Below are positions 56,109 to 64,000 of a stretch of DNA of 64,000 nucleotides, in pieces. A program made the translations under genes and the position numbers. Origin of the DNA: Methylophaga sp. OBS3 (lineage in GTDB: Bacteria > Pseudomonadota > Gammaproteobacteria > Nitrosococcales > Methylophagaceae); contig NZ_JAPDMU010000003.1 of assembly GCF_026319325.1 (NCBI RefSeq), forward strand, positions 248,001 through 312,000, read 5' to 3'. The notes under the pieces are model-generated. The model saw nothing but the letters and a program-made list of their open reading frames with translations. It ran no database searches and was not told the origin of the DNA. The first letter of the stretch is position 1, and each line of letters opens with the position of its first letter.

Positions 56109-56247
56109 ATATCAACAAGATGTTTGCGAATAAATTCTAACAGCAAATATAGCTATCAAGATGAGACTTAGGGGATTTTTGTCTTACGAATGCAGACTAA
56201 ACGGTCAAATTCAAACTGCGTGATAAGAAAGGAGTGTGAATTGGAAA

Positions 56248-56297
56248 TGGTACGCCTGGCAGGACTCGAACCTGCTACCCTCGGCTTAGAAGGCCGA
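56248..56297 (-). other. 3' half of tRNA-Arg(TCT), probable attachment site
   Basis: On the minus strand the sequence covers the complete anticodon arm (stem TCGGC/GCCGA, loop CTTCTAA, anticodon TCT), a variable loop, a perfect T arm (GCAGG, loop TTCGAGT, CCTGC) and the acceptor 3' strand ending ACCA. Upstream, where the D arm and acceptor 5' strand should be, the sequence is unrelated AT-rich DNA. A clean break at the anticodon stem is what tyrosine-integrase elements that recombine at the anticodon leave behind. The element therefore extends to the right. Confidence 0.82.
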
Positions 56298-56336
56298 AAA
56301 CAAAACATTAAATATCAACAATTTACGCTGAATTCC

Positions 56337-56409
56337 ACTTTCGCCACATCTGATTTTTTTCGATTTTAACCCTCTGTTTTTACTAATTTTTATATTAGAT
56401 GGCGAAAGT
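56337..56409. repeat. Inverted repeat ACTTTCGCCA between tRNA remnant and rep
   Basis: ACTTTCGCCACATCT (56337-56351) and AGATGGCGAAAGT (56397-56409) are inverted copies with one extra base, about 45 bases apart, just upstream of the rep promoter. This could be a Rep operator or integrase arm sites. Confidence 0.6.
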
Positions 56410-56413
56410 TATT

Positions 56414-56442
56414 TTAACTCTACGGACAACTATTTTTAATAT
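56414..56442 (+). promoter_or_regulatory. Candidate promoter of the rep gene
   Basis: TTAACT (56414-56419) and TAATAT (56437-56442) spaced 17 nt, followed by an SD AGGGA 6 nt before the ATG at 56512. Confidence 0.5.
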
Positions 56443-56511
56443 AGCTTATGGTATTAAACAGACAGAGCCAGATGCGTACAATATTAAATATAACATTCGC
56501 AGGGAATATTT

Positions 56512-57345
56512 ATGGTAGCAGCTAACGATCAAAGTGATCTAGACAACTATTTTTACCAAGAAGGGACTATATCAGGTCTAGCTGCAAATGATTCTCAGAG
56601 TTCTGAACCACATAGCAAAATCAACGAGTTTTGGGTTTGCAAATCACACGCATTAGCAAGAGCTACAACATCTAAACTCCTTCGGAATGAAATCAGAGTT
56701 CTCACATTAGCAATCAGCCGCGTTAATCCAACAGCTGGTTTGGAACAACGAGCACGTAATTATTTTGACGGCACTTTTGCTGAAGAAAGAGTAGTACACG
56801 TCATTGCGGAGCAATTTATATCAGCTTTCAACGTAACTAGATCAAGTTCTCTAAGGGCATTTAAAGGGGCTGCTAAAAGTCTTAAGAAACTAGAAGTCTT
56901 AATAAGTAATCCTCAAAATGAGGACATTAAAATTAAGGCTATTGAAAATGCCTACTACGACTCCAGCCTTGGATGTATCGAGATCAAGTTCACATCTGAA
57001 TACTACTCACAGTTAATAAACCTAGTTGACAGGACAAGACCCAACATTAAATACCGTGTTGGGGATGTAGTAAACTTCGATTCTTATAGAACCTTCAAGT
57101 TGCATGAATACCTGCTAAGCAAACAACAAACAGGCGTTTATGAAAACACGCGGACGGTGCCGCTCTATGAGCTACGTCAGCTTTTAAACATTCCCGACAA
57201 GCACAGCTATAACACCATCAAAAATAAAGTCATTGACGTTACGGTAAGAGAATTAGTTGATGCGGGCTGGCATATCACCTGGAAACCAAAAAGACATGGT
57301 AAAAAGTACACAGGAGTTGAATTCAAATACAAAGTAAAGAAATAA
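56512..57345 (+). CDS. Rep_3-family replication initiation protein (plasmid type)
   Basis: A 277-residue initiator of the RepB/Rep_3 type (PF01051-like), used by theta-replicating plasmids with iterons. The first winged-helix region includes FWVCKSHALARA and LLRNEIRVLTLAIS; the second has YRTFKLHEYLLS, LYELRQLLNIPDKHSYNTIK and a basic C-terminus (WKPKRHGKKYTGVEFKYK). It lies 215 bases from the tRNA remnant, where an integrase is normally expected, and is followed by an iteron array at 57.7 kb. No partition genes are adjacent. It probably lets the element replicate, at least when excised. Confidence 0.86.
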   Translation: MVAANDQSDLDNYFYQEGTISGLAANDSQSSEPHSKINEFWVCKSHALARATTSKLLRNEIRVLTLAISRVNPTAGLEQRARNYFDGTFAEERVVHVIAEQFISAFNVTRSSSLRAFKGAAKSLKKLEVLISNPQNEDIKIKAIENAYYDSSLGCIEIKFTSEYYSQLINLVDRTRPNIKYRVGDVVNFDSYRTFKLHEYLLSKQQTGVYENTRTVPLYELRQLLNIPDKHSYNTIKNKVIDVTVRELVDAGWHITWKPKRHGKKYTGVEFKYKVKK

Positions 57346-57615
57346 AACTATCAAGATTAAAGCTCAAATAATCAATAGACACTGCAGTAACCATAACCAT
57401 ATCAGCTTCTTTTTTGCTATCTCAGAAGACTTTGGTAAGTACAGAGAAGCTGTGGTCATGTAAGGTAATAACTGTCGGAAGAGTTTAACTTGTATCTATC
57501 TAGCTATAATTTAAACTTACGTTTAGGAGCTTGTAGTCCTTAATAGATCAATTTCACCAGAAAGCTGCTATGTTTCCTTGTCTATAATATTTATCCCTTT
57601 TTATTTCTGTTTACC

Positions 57616-57649
57616 TCTTGTTTACAGGGAAATCTTGTTTACAGGGAAA
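57616..57649 (+). repeat. Two tandem 17-bp repeats TCTTGTTTACAGGGAAA
   Basis: Two exact, directly abutting copies (57616-57632, 57633-57649), preceded by a degenerate third start (TTCTGTTTACC, 57605-57615). They lie 39 bases before the iterons. Confidence 0.85.
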
Positions 57650-57687
57650 AAATATTAAACATATTCAAAAACATAGAGATGCACATC

Positions 57688-57792
57688 CAACTTTTCCGCT
57701 CTAACAGCCAACTTAACTGCGCATTCAAACAACCTTATTGCACTCAAAAACAACTTAATCGCTTTTAAAAACAACTTTTCTGCTTTGCAGAT
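57688..57792 (+). repeat. Iteron array: five 21-bp repeats
   Basis: Five directly repeated units begin at 57688, 57709, 57730, 57751 and 57772, spaced exactly 21 bases. Each starts CAAC(T/C)T and carries GC at positions 11-12; copies 2 to 4 then end in an A-rich run and the consensus is about CAACTTNNYYGCNYTYAAAAA. Exact helical-turn spacing (two turns) downstream of a Rep_3 gene is the typical structure of iteron origins such as those of pSC101 and pPS10. Confidence 0.82.
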
Positions 57793-57795
57793 ATA

Positions 57796-57906
57796 GGTGT
57801 TTCCTACAGGAAACACCCACCTCAATCCTTGCTATACCTTGATTTAAGGTGCGAAGCTACCCTTGCTGTTTCCTATGGGAAACACCTGTTTCCATTCTGG
57901 AAACAG
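57796..57906. repeat. Three TGTTTCC/GGAAACA palindromes
   Basis: GGTGTTTCC-TACA-GGAAACACC (57796-57817), TGTTTCC-TATG-GGAAACA (57867-57884) and CTGTTTCC-ATTCT-GGAAACAG (57886-57906) share one core. A lone TGTTTCC half site is at 57571. They directly follow the iterons and may be Rep operators, partition (parS-like) sites or host-factor sites. Confidence 0.75.
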
Positions 57907-57946
57907 CCCTGATGGTCTTAACCTATTCAAACTTACGATTTGAGCT

Positions 57947-58540
57947 ACCCCGGATTCTGCCTATTCCAGAAAACTTATATTAATCACTTGGTCTCTATTA
58001 TTAAGTTCAAACAGCACTAGTTATCTATCACGATCAATAGTACTTGTTTGTCATCCGTAAATCGTATTTGCCCCCCTATCTCCAGCCCCACAGAATTTAA
58101 AGAGTTTTGTTCTTACACAGCCCTTTTTTGTGTCAACTTAAGCAGGTTGTTTTGAAGGGTTTTCGACATAGCACTACTCCCACTGTTGATTTCTATCTTA
58201 ATCAAACTAAATTATCCGCTCGCGGTGAACCAATAAAGTAGTTAAATCATGCATCCACAGTAAATACCATTCAAGAACAGCTTATTGAGGTTAGAGGCAT
58301 CCAAATACAGAACGGCATAGTCTAAATTTCAATCTACTGAATAGCCTGAGCAACTTGATTTGAGGGTTGATTTGAAACTTTATTCAAATGATTAAGTTAC
58401 CAACCAGTAACCTTCTACAAAACTGGCAATAAATTTTTGGAGATGGTTAATTGATACTAACGAATATGACTTCATCTTTAGCTATTTGATATAACTAACA
58501 TGTCAAAATCATGTATCCAAAACTAAGGGAGTAGTTTGCG
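57947..58540. other. Non-coding stretch between the origin and the helicase gene
   Basis: About 590 bases with no supportable gene on either strand. It is AT-rich; a sequence GCATCCACA at 58252 matches a DnaA box only at 7 of 9 positions. A weak SD-like AAGGGAG (58525-58531) precedes the TTG start of the helicase. Confidence 0.6.
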
Positions 58541-61500
58541 TTGATTAATCTAGATTTATTAGATATTTCTCCAAATATCATATCAGCACAGTCTGAACAC
58601 GTAATAATAGCTCACCAACCTCTAGTGGCTGGAGAAGTCCAAGAAATCACAGCAGAATTGACAAATCAAATTTTGGATTCATGGAAAAGATGTCTAACTG
58701 TTTATCCTGTGGACGCACTTTCCGACGGAGAAAATAGACTCCGACAACCTCAAGTTTCAGCATTATTCGAAATTCTGGGACATCTCACTGGACATAATCC
58801 CGGTGATGCAACAGTAGTTATGCCAACCGGAACAGGTAAAACAGAAACCATGTTAGCGACTGTCTGTGGATTACCCGTGCAAAAAGTATTAGTCATAGTT
58901 CCAAATGATAGCTTGAGGAAGCAAACCTTCAAAAAATTCTTAACTCTCGGAATGCTTCGAAATCTCTATGCAATCAAGCAAGACACCCTTAATCCAATTG
59001 TTGCCTTAATAGAGGGTGGGTTAAACAACAACAATGAATTGAGTTTATCGCAATTAGCTAATGTTTTAGTCACCACCCCCCAATCATTGACCCAAGCAAA
59101 TGCTGAGCTTCGAAACGCACTGTATAACTCATGCAGTCATCTAATCATAGATGAAGCACACCATGTAGAAGCACGGTCTTGGAGGGAAATAAAGCAAGCT
59201 TTCGAAAGTAAGCCGATCCTTCAATTCACTGCTACACCATTCAGACAGGATCAACAAAAAGTCGGAGGGAAAATAATATACAACTTCCCAATATCAAGAG
59301 CTCAAGAGCTGGGGTTGTTTAGAAAAATAAGATTTAAATCGGTTTATGAAGTAAATGATATAGCTGGACATCGGCGTGTAGCAGAGCTAGCAATTTCCCA
59401 ACTTAGGGAAGATATAAGGAATAACCTCGATCACATACTAATGGCACGTTGTGGAAAGCGCTCCGAAGCTAATGATATTGGTGAAATCTACCGAGAACTG
59501 GCTCCAGATTTAAATCCGGTCGTCATTCACAGTGGAGTCAGTAAGCTAAAGAGCAAACAAAAAGCTATTCGTGAAAAGCAACATAAAATTATTATCTGTG
59601 TAGACATGCTTGGTGAAGGTTTTGATCTACCGGAACTCAAAGTGTGTGCGCTTCACACTATCCATAAATCTCTAGCAATAACTCTTCAATTTGCTGGCCG
59701 CTTTGTTCGCCATAGGCCTGACCTTGGTGATCCCACCTTTGTTGCAAACGTATGTGATCAAAATGTCGAGGGTGCTCTAAAACATTTATACATAGAAGAT
59801 CCTGATTGGAATAAAGTTTTACAGTATACGAGCGAAGCAAACATAAAAAGAGAAATAGAGTTTCAACAAATAATTGAAAACAGCTCGAAGACTGGCAAAG
59901 AAATACCTATAGAAAACCTAAGGCCAACTGTTAGTGTGTTAGTCTTTGAAGTAGAAAGTGCAAATATCAACCTCAATATTGAGCAATTTCCCCTTGAGAG
60001 TGGTGAAGAGCTTGTTTCATCAATAGTAGTTCCTAACTCCAATCTTCTAGTACTCATTACCAAAGTAGATACCATCACGAAGTGGGCTCCCCAATCAGAT
60101 CTGACGCAAGCGGATTGGCGCTTGATAGTCCTCTATTATGAACCTAGTGAAGGTTTATTATTTCTCCATGACTCAGCAAAGATAGGCACAAGAAAACGTC
60201 TTATTGACCATATTTCAATTGGAGCAAAACTGCTTAATGGAGACAGAGTTTTCAAAAGTTTTGGAGAAATTGAACGTCTAGTTTTACAGAATGCAGGTCT
60301 AAATAAAGGACAAAGGGGCAACTTACGCTACGTGATGTATACAGGCACAGATATTGAATCATCTATAAATGAGTTGGCACAAGGTTCCTCATACAGATCT
60401 AATATGAGTGGTCGAGGGTACGAGCGAGGAAACAAAGTCGACATTGGTTGCTCCCATAAAGGACGCATCTGGTCTATGAATAATTTAGCGATGTATGACT
60501 GGATGGAATGGTGTAAACAGGTTGGTCAGAAACTCAATGATCCAAATCTTGACCCTAACACCATATTAGATAAAGTTTTACGGACAAAAACTATTACTGC
60601 ACTCCCTGAACTAACTCCAATTGGAATTGATTGGCCGGATTATTTTTTTGAGTATGGTCACTTCAATATTCATCTGACTTGCTCCTCAGGACAGCCATTT
60701 CGCCTTGATAGTGCATGTATTGAGATAAAACAGCACACAATTAACTCCATTAATTTCACTGTAACCCTAGATAACAATTCTTGTGATTACGAATACTCAG
60801 TCACAGAGCATGGTTATTCAGTCTCTAAAGTTAATGGTGCGGACATCATCATAGTATTTTCTTCGATAAATATGCCTCTGGAACAATATTTTTCGGAAAA
60901 TGCCTCGCCTGCAATATTTTATGAAGATGGAACGAAATTATTTGAAAATCTGCACATCGTTCGTCCTGATGGTTTCATTCTTCCTAAATATGACCAAGCA
61001 TCTTTAGAATCTAGACAATGGCAAGTCAATATCCACAAGGAGTCACAAGGACAAAATAAAAATCCTGACTCAATTCAGTACGCAATGATTCAAGAGCTGA
61101 AACAAAAGGGCTACTGGATAATTTTTGATGATGACGGAGCGAATGAAATTGCTGATATCGTAGCTTTTAAAGACGAAGGAGAAACTCTGGCTATTGAGTT
61201 TTACCACCTGAAATATTCTTCTGGGGATGCTCCAGGATCACGAATCAAAGATTTTTATGAAGTTTGTGGGCAAGTTATTAAAGGCTGTAAATGGGTTGGT
61301 GAACTAGAAAAAATCATTACACAGCTAAAAAAACGAGAAAAACTAAGAATGAATACTCAACAAGAAGAGCAGGTTTTGTCTAGAATTGAGCAGGGGGAAT
61401 TTCGTGAGTTTGATCTGCTCCTACAACACGCAAGCAGACTTCAGAAAGAATACCGCTTCTTCATAGTTCAGCCAGGTCTCACAACAGCAAATGTAAGTGA

Positions 61501-61585
61501 GGACATTCTAGCCTTACTCGGTTCAATAGACATATATGTAAAAGAAACGACTGGAATTTCTTTGAGAGTTATTGGAAGTCCATAG
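58541..61585 (+). CDS. SF2 DEAH helicase with C-terminal nuclease-like domain (candidate defence protein)
   Basis: A 1014-residue protein with TTG start and SD AAGGGAG. The SF2 core has RQPQ (68-71), Walker A MPTGTGKT (94-101), DEAH (204-207), FTATPFR (229-235), VDMLGEGFDL (354-363) and QFAGRFVRHR (383-392). A long middle region without recognised motif follows, then a putative PD-(D/E)xK-like domain: ANEIADIVAF with Asp872, AIEFYHLKYS with Glu886 and Lys891, and GQVIK with Gln911. The residue two before the Lys is His889, so the motif is atypical. Restriction-like helicase-nuclease fusions of this kind occur as phage or plasmid defence proteins; no methyltransferase or partner gene is adjacent. 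Function is inferred from fold and location. Confidence 0.8.
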   Translation: MINLDLLDISPNIISAQSEHVIIAHQPLVAGEVQEITAELTNQILDSWKRCLTVYPVDALSDGENRLRQPQVSALFEILGHLTGHNPGDATVVMPTGTGKTETMLATVCGLPVQKVLVIVPNDSLRKQTFKKFLTLGMLRNLYAIKQDTLNPIVALIEGGLNNNNELSLSQLANVLVTTPQSLTQANAELRNALYNSCSHLIIDEAHHVEARSWREIKQAFESKPILQFTATPFRQDQQKVGGKIIYNFPISRAQELGLFRKIRFKSVYEVNDIAGHRRVAELAISQLREDIRNNLDHILMARCGKRSEANDIGEIYRELAPDLNPVVIHSGVSKLKSKQKAIREKQHKIIICVDMLGEGFDLPELKVCALHTIHKSLAITLQFAGRFVRHRPDLGDPTFVANVCDQNVEGALKHLYIEDPDWNKVLQYTSEANIKREIEFQQIIENSSKTGKEIPIENLRPTVSVLVFEVESANINLNIEQFPLESGEELVSSIVVPNSNLLVLITKVDTITKWAPQSDLTQADWRLIVLYYEPSEGLLFLHDSAKIGTRKRLIDHISIGAKLLNGDRVFKSFGEIERLVLQNAGLNKGQRGNLRYVMYTGTDIESSINELAQGSSYRSNMSGRGYERGNKVDIGCSHKGRIWSMNNLAMYDWMEWCKQVGQKLNDPNLDPNTILDKVLRTKTITALPELTPIGIDWPDYFFEYGHFNIHLTCSSGQPFRLDSACIEIKQHTINSINFTVTLDNNSCDYEYSVTEHGYSVSKVNGADIIIVFSSINMPLEQYFSENASPAIFYEDGTKLFENLHIVRPDGFILPKYDQASLESRQWQVNIHKESQGQNKNPDSIQYAMIQELKQKGYWIIFDDDGANEIADIVAFKDEGETLAIEFYHLKYSSGDAPGSRIKDFYEVCGQVIKGCKWVGELEKIITQLKKREKLRMNTQQEEQVLSRIEQGEFREFDLLLQHASRLQKEYRFFIVQPGLTTANVSEDILALLGSIDIYVKETTGISLRVIGSP

Positions 61586-61689
61586 CTAAAAATGTAGTTT
61601 TTTGGTAGTAACTTTACACTTGTTCACCAATATAACTTTGGCGAACATACAGGGAACTGACTTTAAATAATTTGTTTTTTAAGCAAGGC

Positions 61690-61744
61690 CGGACTAATCT
61701 TTGTAATCCGTTGGTCATAGATTCAAGTCCTTTCTCCGGTACCA
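61690..61744 (+). other. tRNA 3'-half-like remnant (Thr-type anticodon loop)
   Basis: On the plus strand CGGACT ... TTTGTAATCCG resembles an anticodon arm with TGT anticodon interrupted by a 6-base AATCTT insertion. It is followed by GGTC, a TTCAAGT T-loop with poorly paired stem, and CTCCGGT-ACCA. The upstream sequence has no D arm or acceptor 5' strand. It is not a functional tRNA; it looks like a decayed tRNA 3' half at another insertion junction. A terminator follows directly. Confidence 0.45.
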
Positions 61745-61750
61745 AGTATC

Positions 61751-61782
61751 AAGGGTTTACGATAATATCGTGTGCCCTTTTT
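61751..61782 (+). terminator. Terminator after the tRNA-like remnant
   Basis: AAGGG-TTT-ACGAT-AAT-ATCGT-GTG-CCCTT forms a long stem with one mismatch and two G-T pairs, then T residues. It may also terminate the helicase message 166 bases upstream. Confidence 0.75.
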
Positions 61783-61948
61783 AATTACTTCCGTAAAATA
61801 AACTGAAACATTCACGGCATTTTGTTCTTCGGATACATGTAATCAGAACGGACCATTACCCGCATAGTTGTGTTCCCTTGTGGGAGTGTTACGGCAAGAT
61901 CAGCAGCTCGAATGAGTATGTAAATTCTTCTCTTGTTTTGATGTCTGG

Positions 61949-62287
61949 TTAATATCCCTTGAAGGCTTTACCTTTTGAGTCGACACAATCTGGGTGACCA
62001 TCCCGCCACTCGCTAAAAGTATGACCAAAGTTCTCGGCAGGTACGACATGCTCCCACTCTAATCTTCCAGCACGTTTAATATGCTTTTGTGTATGAAACC
62101 CAGCTGGCGGGTTTACGTTCTTATTTGCATCAAAGCCAGCTTCACAGTAGAGAGTTACCCTACTATCAAAGTAGACTTTATCCATCATTATTTTTTTTGC
62201 CTTACTAAACGAATCTGTTGGTTCTGCAACAACTGTAAATGACAGCAATGATGCTGCCATTAAGAAAAACGTCTTACTTACTTTCAC
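61949..62287 (-). pseudogene. Endonuclease I (EndA/Dns family), truncated after the N-terminal half
   Basis: 112 residues with signal peptide (TFFLMAASLLSFTVVA) and the EndA start SFSKAKKIMMDKVYF. The catalytic HNH-like segment RLEWEHVVPAENFGH is present, then GHPDC. The family is about 230 residues long; here the frame ends at KAFKGY. The catalytic Asn region (usually DMHNL ... N) and the rest are missing, and I could not find them in the 150 bases downstream in any frame. Probably inactive. It starts 12 nt after the SRAP-like gene, on the same strand. Confidence 0.8.
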
Positions 62288-62299
62288 TACTATTCCTGC

Positions 62300-62746
62300 T
62301 CAATTTTCATAATGCTTAATTCTTGAACGTTCACCTTTTTGAACGATACGGGGCCACCTGCTATGGATTTGTGCATCTTCAAGCTCTGGCTCAATTGTTA
62401 CTACATACACTCTTCTCTCATTACCCTCTCTAGCTATTAGGCCTTGGATAAACTGTCCTTTTTGTAAGTCATACCAGTGACTCACGCCTTCTAAGTCTTT
62501 TTCCATAAAACTTAAAACTGGTATTTTGACAGGCTTAGGAAAGTACTTATCCCATCTGCCTGAATAGATAGAATCGAGTCTTGCCCATCCCGTCATGGGC
62601 AAATTGCCAGGCTGCTTTTGCCGTCTTCCCCAAGCAAGCAACTGCTTCTCGCCATTAGCCATGAGAATGGGTAGCACAGCTTTAGGATTGGGATAAAAAA
62701 TCCTCAGAACATCATCACCATACTGAAAATACACGCCACCACACAT
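62300..62746 (-). CDS. SRAP-like (YedK/HMCES family) protein, compact form
   Basis: About 148 residues. Start ATG at 62746 makes Cys residue 2 (MCGGVYFQ), the residue that in SRAP proteins becomes N-terminal and crosslinks abasic sites in single-stranded DNA. VVTIEPELEDAQIHSRWPRIV matches the conserved C-terminal His segment (IHDRMP in E. coli YedK). The catalytic Glu and Asn positions are less clear. The ATG overlaps the UmuC-like stop (TGATG), so the two are coupled. A frame extension upstream to 62779 lies within the polymerase gene and is not supported. Confidence 0.78.
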   Translation of the reverse strand: MCGGVYFQYGDDVLRIFYPNPKAVLPILMANGEKQLLAWGRRQKQPGNLPMTGWARLDSIYSGRWDKYFPKPVKIPVLSFMEKDLEGVSHWYDLQKGQFIQGLIAREGNERRVYVVTIEPELEDAQIHSRWPRIVQKGERSRIKHYEN

Positions 62747-63950
62747 CAGATGGTTTTCCTGTGCCCAGTTGGCTTCCAAGCCGGCGCAATTACATTGGGC
62801 ATTTCACTTCGACCTATAACCCTTGTTGGCGCTACTGTGAATTCACCGAAGCGTTCATTAATGCTATCCAAAGCTTGGTTTAACGCCTCTCGTTTGTGCT
62901 TTGAAGCATCATCAATAAATAAGTCTTGCTGCCTTCCATGCAGAGGTGACAATGCTGTAACCTGAACTTGCCGGCACTCTTGCCCAACATAATGCCTATC
63001 GACAAAGTCTAGGCAGTGCATATAAATAGTGCCGCCATCATCAGTGGCATTATTCAGCTTAACTTTTGTTGAAATCCACCCAAGCTCTGTCTTAAAACCT
63101 ATGAAGAAAACATCTGACTGAAACTGGTGCCTTCTTAATCGAATGCCTACCTTTTCAGACATATGCTGAAAATAGGTCAACAGCACACGTTTATCTCTTG
63201 TTCCTGGCGGCATAACCTTGCCATGCCCGATTGATTTTGGCTCTTTAACCTCGGTAATTACAGGTTCAGGATCTTTACCCTGAGCCATCAACCATATTCT
63301 TCTTCCAGGGTTACCAAAACGTTTAGCAATAAGACTCATCGGCACCTTTTTCATGTCGCCGCATTTATAGATACCATATTGGGCCAAAAAGCTCGCTATT
63401 CCCGTATTGATACCACTTAACTCAGTGACATATTCATTAGCTAAGCGAGCTTCAGCTAGGCTTGGCTCTATGATAGTTAAGCCATCTGGTTTATTTAATT
63501 TGGCTGCAAATTTAGCTGTTGTCTTATCACCACTAATTCCTACACTGCATGTCAGCCCAGAAACATCACTAATGGTGTCTTTAATAAGACGACCAACTTG
63601 CTCGGCATCACGATAGATTGACTGACAATCCGTTAAATCTAGAAATGCCTCATCAACTGAGTAAACTTCAATTGTGGGAGAAATGTTTTGCAGTGATTCC
63701 ATAATGGCCGATGAAACTGCGCGTATCGGGTAGGTCTACTAGGAGCTTGGATGATACCTGGGCATAAATCTCGGGCTTCTTTAAGTCGCATGCCGGTTTT
63801 AACACCATAACTTCTTGCTTCATAAGAAGCAGTGATAATTGTACTGCCAAGCTTTCCGTTGGTAACTCCAACAGGCCTATTTCGCCAATATGGGAAGTCA
63901 TGCTGCTCGATCTGAGCAAAAAAACAGTTCATGTCGACGAGAGCTATCAT
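62746..63950 (-). pseudogene. UmuC-type Y-family DNA polymerase, frameshifted
   Basis: Two frames together make one UmuC-like protein of about 400 residues. Frame one (from ATG 63950, or 63983) holds the palm start MIALVDMNCFFAQIEQ and runs to about LCPGIIQAPSRPTRYAQ; frame two (from about 63715) continues SSAIMESLQN and holds the catalytic YSVDEAFLDL, then SVGISGDKTTAKFAAKLNKP and a C-terminal little-finger region. A one-base loss near 63713-63720 explains the shift. Either the gene is inactive or this is a sequencing error. A umuD partner would lie beyond 64000. Pol V-type genes of this sort are frequent on plasmids and ICEs. Confidence 0.83.
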
Positions 63951-64000
63951 GCGATGCCATTTTTTCGAGTTAACGCCAGACATTGATCTAAGACCTAAAT

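Follow-up and report, generated by a model that had tools for sequence, protein, structure and literature searches.

What does a superfamily 2 (SF2) helicase gene do when it lies on a mobile island and carries a conserved C-terminal extension? The question is raised by the open reading frame (ORF) at positions 58541-61585, plus strand, of a 64,000-nucleotide stretch of Methylophaga sp. OBS3 (contig NZ_JAPDMU010000003.1 of assembly GCF_026319325.1; the whole stretch is hereafter the window). An earlier inspection of the letters alone (the sequence-only reading) had singled this gene out as a single-gene helicase-nuclease defence candidate. We find that this remains the best reading of the gene: it may encode a single-gene helicase-nuclease defence protein against phages or plasmids, in which the motor would be the sensor, the middle region the coupling, and an HxK module at the C-terminus the DNA cutter, and we hold this reading to be on the probable side, with modest confidence. 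It is preferred because the family is accessory, mobile, and widespread, occurs near restriction-type genes, and has its C-terminal module in common with PDC-S71. The defence interpretation of the sequence-only reading is supported in these respects, whereas the profile evidence for a nuclease proved weak.

The ORF is a genuine reading frame of 1014 codons with a TTG start and a likely ribosome-binding site, AAGGGAG (58525-58531, plus strand, read from the sequence), 9 bases before it, and the gene has a single match in its own genome (a 2.3-Mb assembly of 8 contigs). Pfam and residue invariance place the helicase core at residues 66-392 (58736-59716), with ResIII, DEAD, SWI2_SNF2, and Helicase_C above the Pfam cut-off and AAA_22 below it, all inside residues 66-391. 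The core contains PTGTGKT (K100), DEAHH (204-208), TATP (230-233), EG (359-360), and QxxGRxxR (383-390), which we take to be motifs I, II, III, V, and VI; all are intact, and their residues are kept in all 70 rows of an alignment of the window protein with 69 of 80 relatives, the other 11 being cut, broken, or partial. The protein is thus an SF2 helicase of the ResIII/DEAD type, and the intact DEAH helicase first noticed by eye stands. It belongs neither to RadD nor to the type I restriction subunits, as the NCBIfam models for RadD and hsdR reach only 36.9 bits (cut-off 720) and 31 bits (cut-off 284.55), respectively. Seventeen PADLOC families match it over the helicase part (best, PbeA, 2e-12), and the best solved relatives in a profile search of the PDB, which was also queried with the single sequence, are XPBII, a 953-residue putative helicase (7clg), RadD, and RAD25. 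Pfam names no domain beyond residue 391, and the large undefined middle region that had been described is indeed there (residues 400-811, 59738-60973, delimited by Pfam and the alignment). In that region, G586, G602, G641, W644, and W657 are invariant, and G626, G630, and G636 are nearly so.

The C-terminal module spans residues 812-1014 (60974-61582, plus strand). Eleven of its residues are invariant in the 70 rows (E834, Q846, D865, E869, D872, H889, K891, Q911, G952, Q977, and P978). The sequence-only reading had composed its active site of D872, E886, H889-x-K891, and Q911, with His at the usual second acidic position; this holds apart from position 886, which is Glu in only 17 of the 70 rows, so that the motif becomes DDxxxExAD-(16)-HxK ... 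Q, without E886. The proposed active site accordingly covers residues 864-911 (61130-61273), with D864, D865, E869, D872, H889-x-K891, and Q911. In two divergent prophage relatives with 24-26% identity, E869, D872, H889, K891, and Q911 can be recognised by eye, and position 865 is His.

D872 and K891 of a PD-(D/E)xK-like signature are invariant, and a comparison by hhalign with a profile of the Mrr catalytic domain (PF04471) built from 24 loci gives a weak match (27%, E 6.7e-4) in which D872 aligns with the aspartate of Mrr and HxK with its QxK. The control profiles (FolD, Zur, and one-sided reversed profiles) remained below 1%, and none of 400 column shuffles reached the Mrr score; a two-sided reversed comparison (19%) is the true alignment read backwards and not a control. 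From the invariant pattern and the weak Mrr register, we infer nuclease activity and regard a cutting domain in the C-terminus as probable.

The module is also linked to PDC-S71 (PADLOC-DB PDLC05077, a model of 589 positions), which is itself a computational candidate. PDC-S71 is listed by 38 of the 70 C-terminal segments at E ≤10 (best 2.7e-13), and all six segments that were run at E ≤0.01 match it (1.5e-12 to 0.0013) at about positions 388-555. Since the match is limited to these positions, the N-terminus of PDC-S71, some 390 residues in which no helicase is recognised, differs from that of the window protein. A module profile (hmmsearch, small ORF set) finds six proteins with E values from 7e-16 to 1.6e-5; among the five that were scanned (L130 was not), L128, L131, and L132 match the full PDC-S71 model, L127 matches its C-terminal part only, and L129 has no match. 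In a profile-profile comparison, the module and the C-terminal 200 residues of these six proteins align at 99.0% (E 4.1e-18), with DDxxxExAD ... HxK ... Q in register. The module is therefore common to the helicase family and PDC-S71, which is present in 2 of 274 genomes of the class and whose name is absent from the papers, mainly open-access literature, that we searched.

L127 and L129, at 607-614 amino acids, bear the same module behind an N-terminus covered by neither Pfam nor the PDC-S71 model. It is quite conceivable, though we would place it just short of probable, that the HxK module is an undescribed, exchangeable C-terminal effector nuclease carried by several unrelated defence proteins, namely an XPB/RadD-like SF2 motor (in ten phyla), the PDC-S71 N-terminus, and this third N-terminus. 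The helicase form would then be a single-gene immune system that can dock into AddAB-like or BREX-type loci.

The same evidence bears on another possibility, in which the module is a nucleic-acid- or ligand-binding domain and the motor by itself exerts the defence, for example by stalling phage replication complexes or stripping them off. HxK is not the textbook PD-(D/E)xK signature, no nuclease family was recognised in the module, and sister prophage helicases of about 620 amino acids do without it, all of which would suit a binding role. The D/E/H/K/Q set is nevertheless invariant in 70 of 70 rows, persists at the low identities mentioned above, and is kept in PDC-S71-like proteins in which there is no recognised helicase. 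Catalysis fits better than binding because this charged set is kept across distant and PDC-S71-like proteins, and we consider a binding role unlikely.

The sister prophage helicases come from viral contigs (L288-L299) and form a specific sister group of 615-650 amino acids without the C-terminal module; they score 153-220 bits against the family profile (helicase core), compared with at most 42 for other SF2 neighbours. A small gene of 108-146 amino acids lies next to the sister helicase in each of 11 loci (L293 was left out, as it nearly duplicates L292), and some of these pairs sit, by eye, between a repressor/ImmA-like gene and an integrase gene, so they may possibly represent a two-gene prophage cassette. 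The P4 satellite system Helicase-DUF2290 was considered for them, and no DUF2290 was found in 12 records, where the control was silent too, so that the negative falls short of proof.

If the protein serves defence, its family would be expected among accessory rather than core genes, and the sequence-only reading would have been undermined by core homologues. No such pattern appeared: of 24 genomes in the genus, 2 carry a full-length relative, and of 5426 E. coli genomes, 14 have one subtype with a match to at least 80% of the query. By tblastn, 175 of 72,556 plasmid records match (50 over at least 80% of the protein, each with less than 60% identity), as do 92 of 50,697 phage records (2 over at least 80%). 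A scan of genome contigs confirmed at least 109 relatives, of which 80 were kept; in viral contigs, a pattern-based module scan gave 8 loci and a helicase scan two further, divergent ones. Among 398 genomes of the phylum, 15 have the C-terminal module (E ≤0.01), in frames of 1016-1425 amino acids (4), 157-225 (3), and 599-622 (5, PDC-S71-like), with 3 weak matches of 453-677. The 68 phylum-labelled rows of the family tree represent 10 phyla and require 15 changes of phylum label against a possible minimum of 9, and the starred sister pairs Marinicella with Pedobacter and Parcubacteria with Pedobacter cross phyla. This pattern is compatible with horizontal transfer, short of proof; the window protein sits on a long branch, and its placement is unsure. 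Taken together, these results describe a widespread family of mobile accessory genes.

The gene is also under purifying selection, at least in E. coli, as the ratio of nonsynonymous to synonymous substitution rates (dN/dS) over the whole gene is 0.12-0.19 in five of six pairs among four copies, the sixth pair being near-identical. In the C-terminal part, dN/dS is 0.03 in the four computable pairs, which amount effectively to one comparison because the copies share their C-termini two by two. In most pairs, dS is higher in the C-terminal part (0.25) than elsewhere in the gene, for which recombination may be responsible.

The surroundings of the relatives were surveyed at 88 family loci (80 genome loci and 8 from plasmid and phage collections) by clustering 861 flanking ORFs. 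The clusters include a tyrosine integrase (11 loci), an SNF2/NOV-type helicase (9), HsdM-like (7) and HsdR-like (5) proteins, AddA-like (5) and AddB-like (4) proteins, and type III Mod-like (4) and Res-like (4) proteins, named from Pfam scans of seven representatives and from annotation in named records, with Mod assigned by reading the sequence. The comparison set consisted of 60 folD loci, chosen down the list from 113 genomes with a match so as to have at least about 2.5 kb (mostly 8 kb) on the left; three stretches are short on the right. Restriction-type clusters occur at 15 of the 88 family loci and at none of the 60 controls (p 2.4e-4), or at 11 and none when the SNF2/NOV cluster is left out (p 0.0025), bearing in mind that the controls come from one phylum and the family loci from ten, and that the family loci themselves served to define the clusters. 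The integrase is found at 11 family loci and 1 control locus (p 0.015). Of four E. coli loci examined among the 14, two lie in tRNA-Leu islands by intact type I restriction-modification genes and two in tRNA-Phe islands by pieces of such genes. In E. coli, another subtype has a copy in an ssrA island, one gene from an integrase and with AlpA and DUF927 genes further on; this copy includes the module and is a full member of the family. We read this island as P4-like, and P4-like satellites are known to be a hotspot of defence systems in E. coli (PMC9122126). Some plasmid loci that we viewed have no defence-type neighbour by name.

These distributions can be set against the possibility that the protein is an accessory DNA-repair or plasmid-maintenance helicase, RadD/XPB-like, aiding the element or its host under DNA damage and having no immune role. 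XPBII, RadD, and RAD25 are indeed among its nearest solved helicases, and a Rep3 initiator and umuC pieces share its island. The RadD score far under its cut-off, the patchy presence in the genus, the sister pairs across phyla, and the restriction-type neighbours all speak against it, and we regard it as rather unlikely.

In Alphaproteobacteria, an AddA-like gene lies just upstream of the helicase at five loci (L040, L045, L051, L088, and L089; UvrD plus PDDEXK_1 in L045), preceded at four of them by an AddB-like gene (PDDEXK_1 in L045). A divergent WYL gene is present at L045, L088, and L089; at L040 and L051, the end of the contig cuts the locus short. On a Sinorhizobium plasmid (L281), a PD-(D/E)XK nuclease gene and then a gap without annotation precede the helicase, with brxC, DUF1788, and DUF1819 genes beside it.

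Such arrangements would be expected if the protein were a subunit of a multi-gene system, with solo copies using partners elsewhere and an ancestral form resembling the alphaproteobacterial AddB-like/AddA-like/helicase operon; the BREX genes beside the Sinorhizobium copy agree with this too. The AddA-like gene is, however, confined to 5 of the 88 loci, the four of these in the tree form one clade, and no neighbour cluster exceeds 11 of 88 loci, which makes a subunit role quite unlikely.

Several observations weigh against a single-gene helicase-nuclease defence protein, in addition to the phylum bias of the control loci. In the stretches examined, 73 of the 88 family loci have no restriction-type neighbour. 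The window's own C-terminal segment does not list PDC-S71 (E ≤10), nor do any of 11 full-length relatives (7 at E ≤0.001 and 4 at E ≤0.01), where a strong helicase in a long query may mask the match; over the 589-position model, neither the window protein nor its module has a match. Stretches 400-600 and 500-700 of the middle region score 19% and 26% against Mrr, the latter on the other half of Mrr from that matched by the module; Mrr as query gives 19%, and the PDC-S71 C-termini give only 4%. Because of these values, the Mrr match may reflect a general alpha/beta pattern. A PDB profile search of the C-terminal alignment returned PHIKZ074 as its sole match (E 1.4), which we take as chance, as we do the families found in Pfam and NCBIfam scans of the 70 C-termini, none of which was consistent (at most 3 members per family).

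How does the protein relate to systems that have already been described? The closest in plan is Hna of Sinorhizobium meliloti, a 3'-5' single-stranded DNA exonuclease restrained by ATP and activated by phage SSB (PMC13381803, PMC12445080). Both are single genes with an N-terminal SF2 helicase, a C-terminal nuclease-like domain (PD-(D/E)XK-like in Hna), and a broad, horizontally moving distribution. That the window protein is itself a single-gene abortive-infection protein of the Hna family is very improbable, as Hna is described as an 845-residue DinG/XPD-like protein with a reduced Arch domain (PMC13381803), unlike the 1014 residues, XPB/RadD/ResIII-type core, and HxK found here, and this identity was dropped. 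In addition, DinG models match the window protein weakly and over short stretches only, no Hna-named chain appeared in the PDB sequence search (where the presence of Hna entries is unsure), and the excerpts from the Hna descriptions (PMC13381803, PMC12445080) make no mention of a large middle region.

In Hachiman, the helicase HamB senses single-stranded DNA or damage and activates the DNA-degrading nuclease HamA (PMC12278908), a coupling like the one proposed here, but it has two genes, a Ski2-like HamB, and a HamA motif D-E(X)K. HamA (PF08878) has no match in the window's genome and a match in 1 of the 185 genomes searched. Mrr resembles the module in its D ... QxK and differs in the weak score, in H for Q/E, and in the 203-residue length of the module with its conserved G952 and Q977-P978. 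The HsdR/Res restriction motors likewise have a ResIII-type SF2 motor and restriction-type neighbourhoods, but here the nuclease-like module is C-terminal, no methyltransferase partner adjoins, and the hsdR score is below cut-off. DruE of Druantia III has been termed a helicase-nuclease effector (PMC13192584), and fusions of PD-(D/E)XK and SF2 helicase near BREX have been mentioned in general terms (PMC12839542). The excerpts from PMC9519451 and PMC11514479 do not name the window protein's family, the accessions of six family members are absent from the papers searched, and we found no description of the family, its helicase type, or the HxK module in that literature. Thus, helicase-nuclease defence proteins are an already known kind, while this family, its helicase type, and its module are apparently undescribed.

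If the protein is a single-gene helicase-nuclease defence system, its N-terminal XPB/RadD/ResIII-like motor would load on foreign- or damaged-looking DNA, such as free ends or single-stranded or replicating DNA, and would activate the C-terminal module through the middle region. The module would then cut DNA with an Mrr/PD-(D/E)xK-like site, D872 ... H889-x-K891 ... Q911, with His in place of the second acid and E869 as a further acid. Neither a partner gene nor a methylation mark would be required; therefore, self would be told from non-self, as in Hna and Hachiman, by DNA structure or by a trigger from the phage. The outcome might be loss of the invader DNA or cell death, and the trigger and cell survival are the least certain parts of this proposal. 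Were it true, a protein annotated only as "DEAD/DEAH box helicase (family protein)" would be an immune system that needs one gene and is widely distributed, and this helicase family and a second candidate, PDC-S71, would both carry a nuclease-like module whose HxK active site is unusual. One solved structure of the module would then explain at least two candidate systems.

As to the island itself, the claim that the gene stands alone on a mobile element is correct as regards the element, a 26.7-kb tRNA-Arg island, and incorrect as regards its isolation, given other defence-type genes there; on the whole, the sequence-only reading was right about gene, helicase, and island and erred on these neighbours and on E886. 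HsdM and HsdS were not recognised among the neighbouring window ORFs scanned. At the left junction, the 3' part of tRNA-Arg(TCT) is present as a 54-bp copy (56244-56297, minus strand), identical to G000:C6:330861-330914, and the island occupies 56244-64000 of the window and continues to G000:C6:330914. The empty site was looked at from the folD side, and in relatives there is no tRNA-Arg copy beside the Zur/FUR-type gene that lies left of the island. A Rep3-type replication initiator lies at 56512-57345 (plus strand; Rep3_N 3.2e-13, Rep3_C 1.3e-9 by Pfam). Downstream of it, in the stretch 57346-58540, a 17-bp unit is perfectly repeated in tandem (57616-57649), and arms at 57790-57815 and 57867-57892 form an 85% inverted repeat; these may be what is left of an iteron-type origin. 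Just downstream of the helicase gene, a second tRNA-like 3' tail can be seen by eye at 61700-61750, possibly the scar of an earlier insertion; it was not found elsewhere in the genome, and ARAGORN reports no tRNA in the window. Further on, an endonuclease I-like fragment of 112 amino acids (61949-62287, below the Pfam cut-off) and a umuC/impB-type gene whose sequence is divided between two overlapping frames (62746-63983, minus strand) are signs of island decay.
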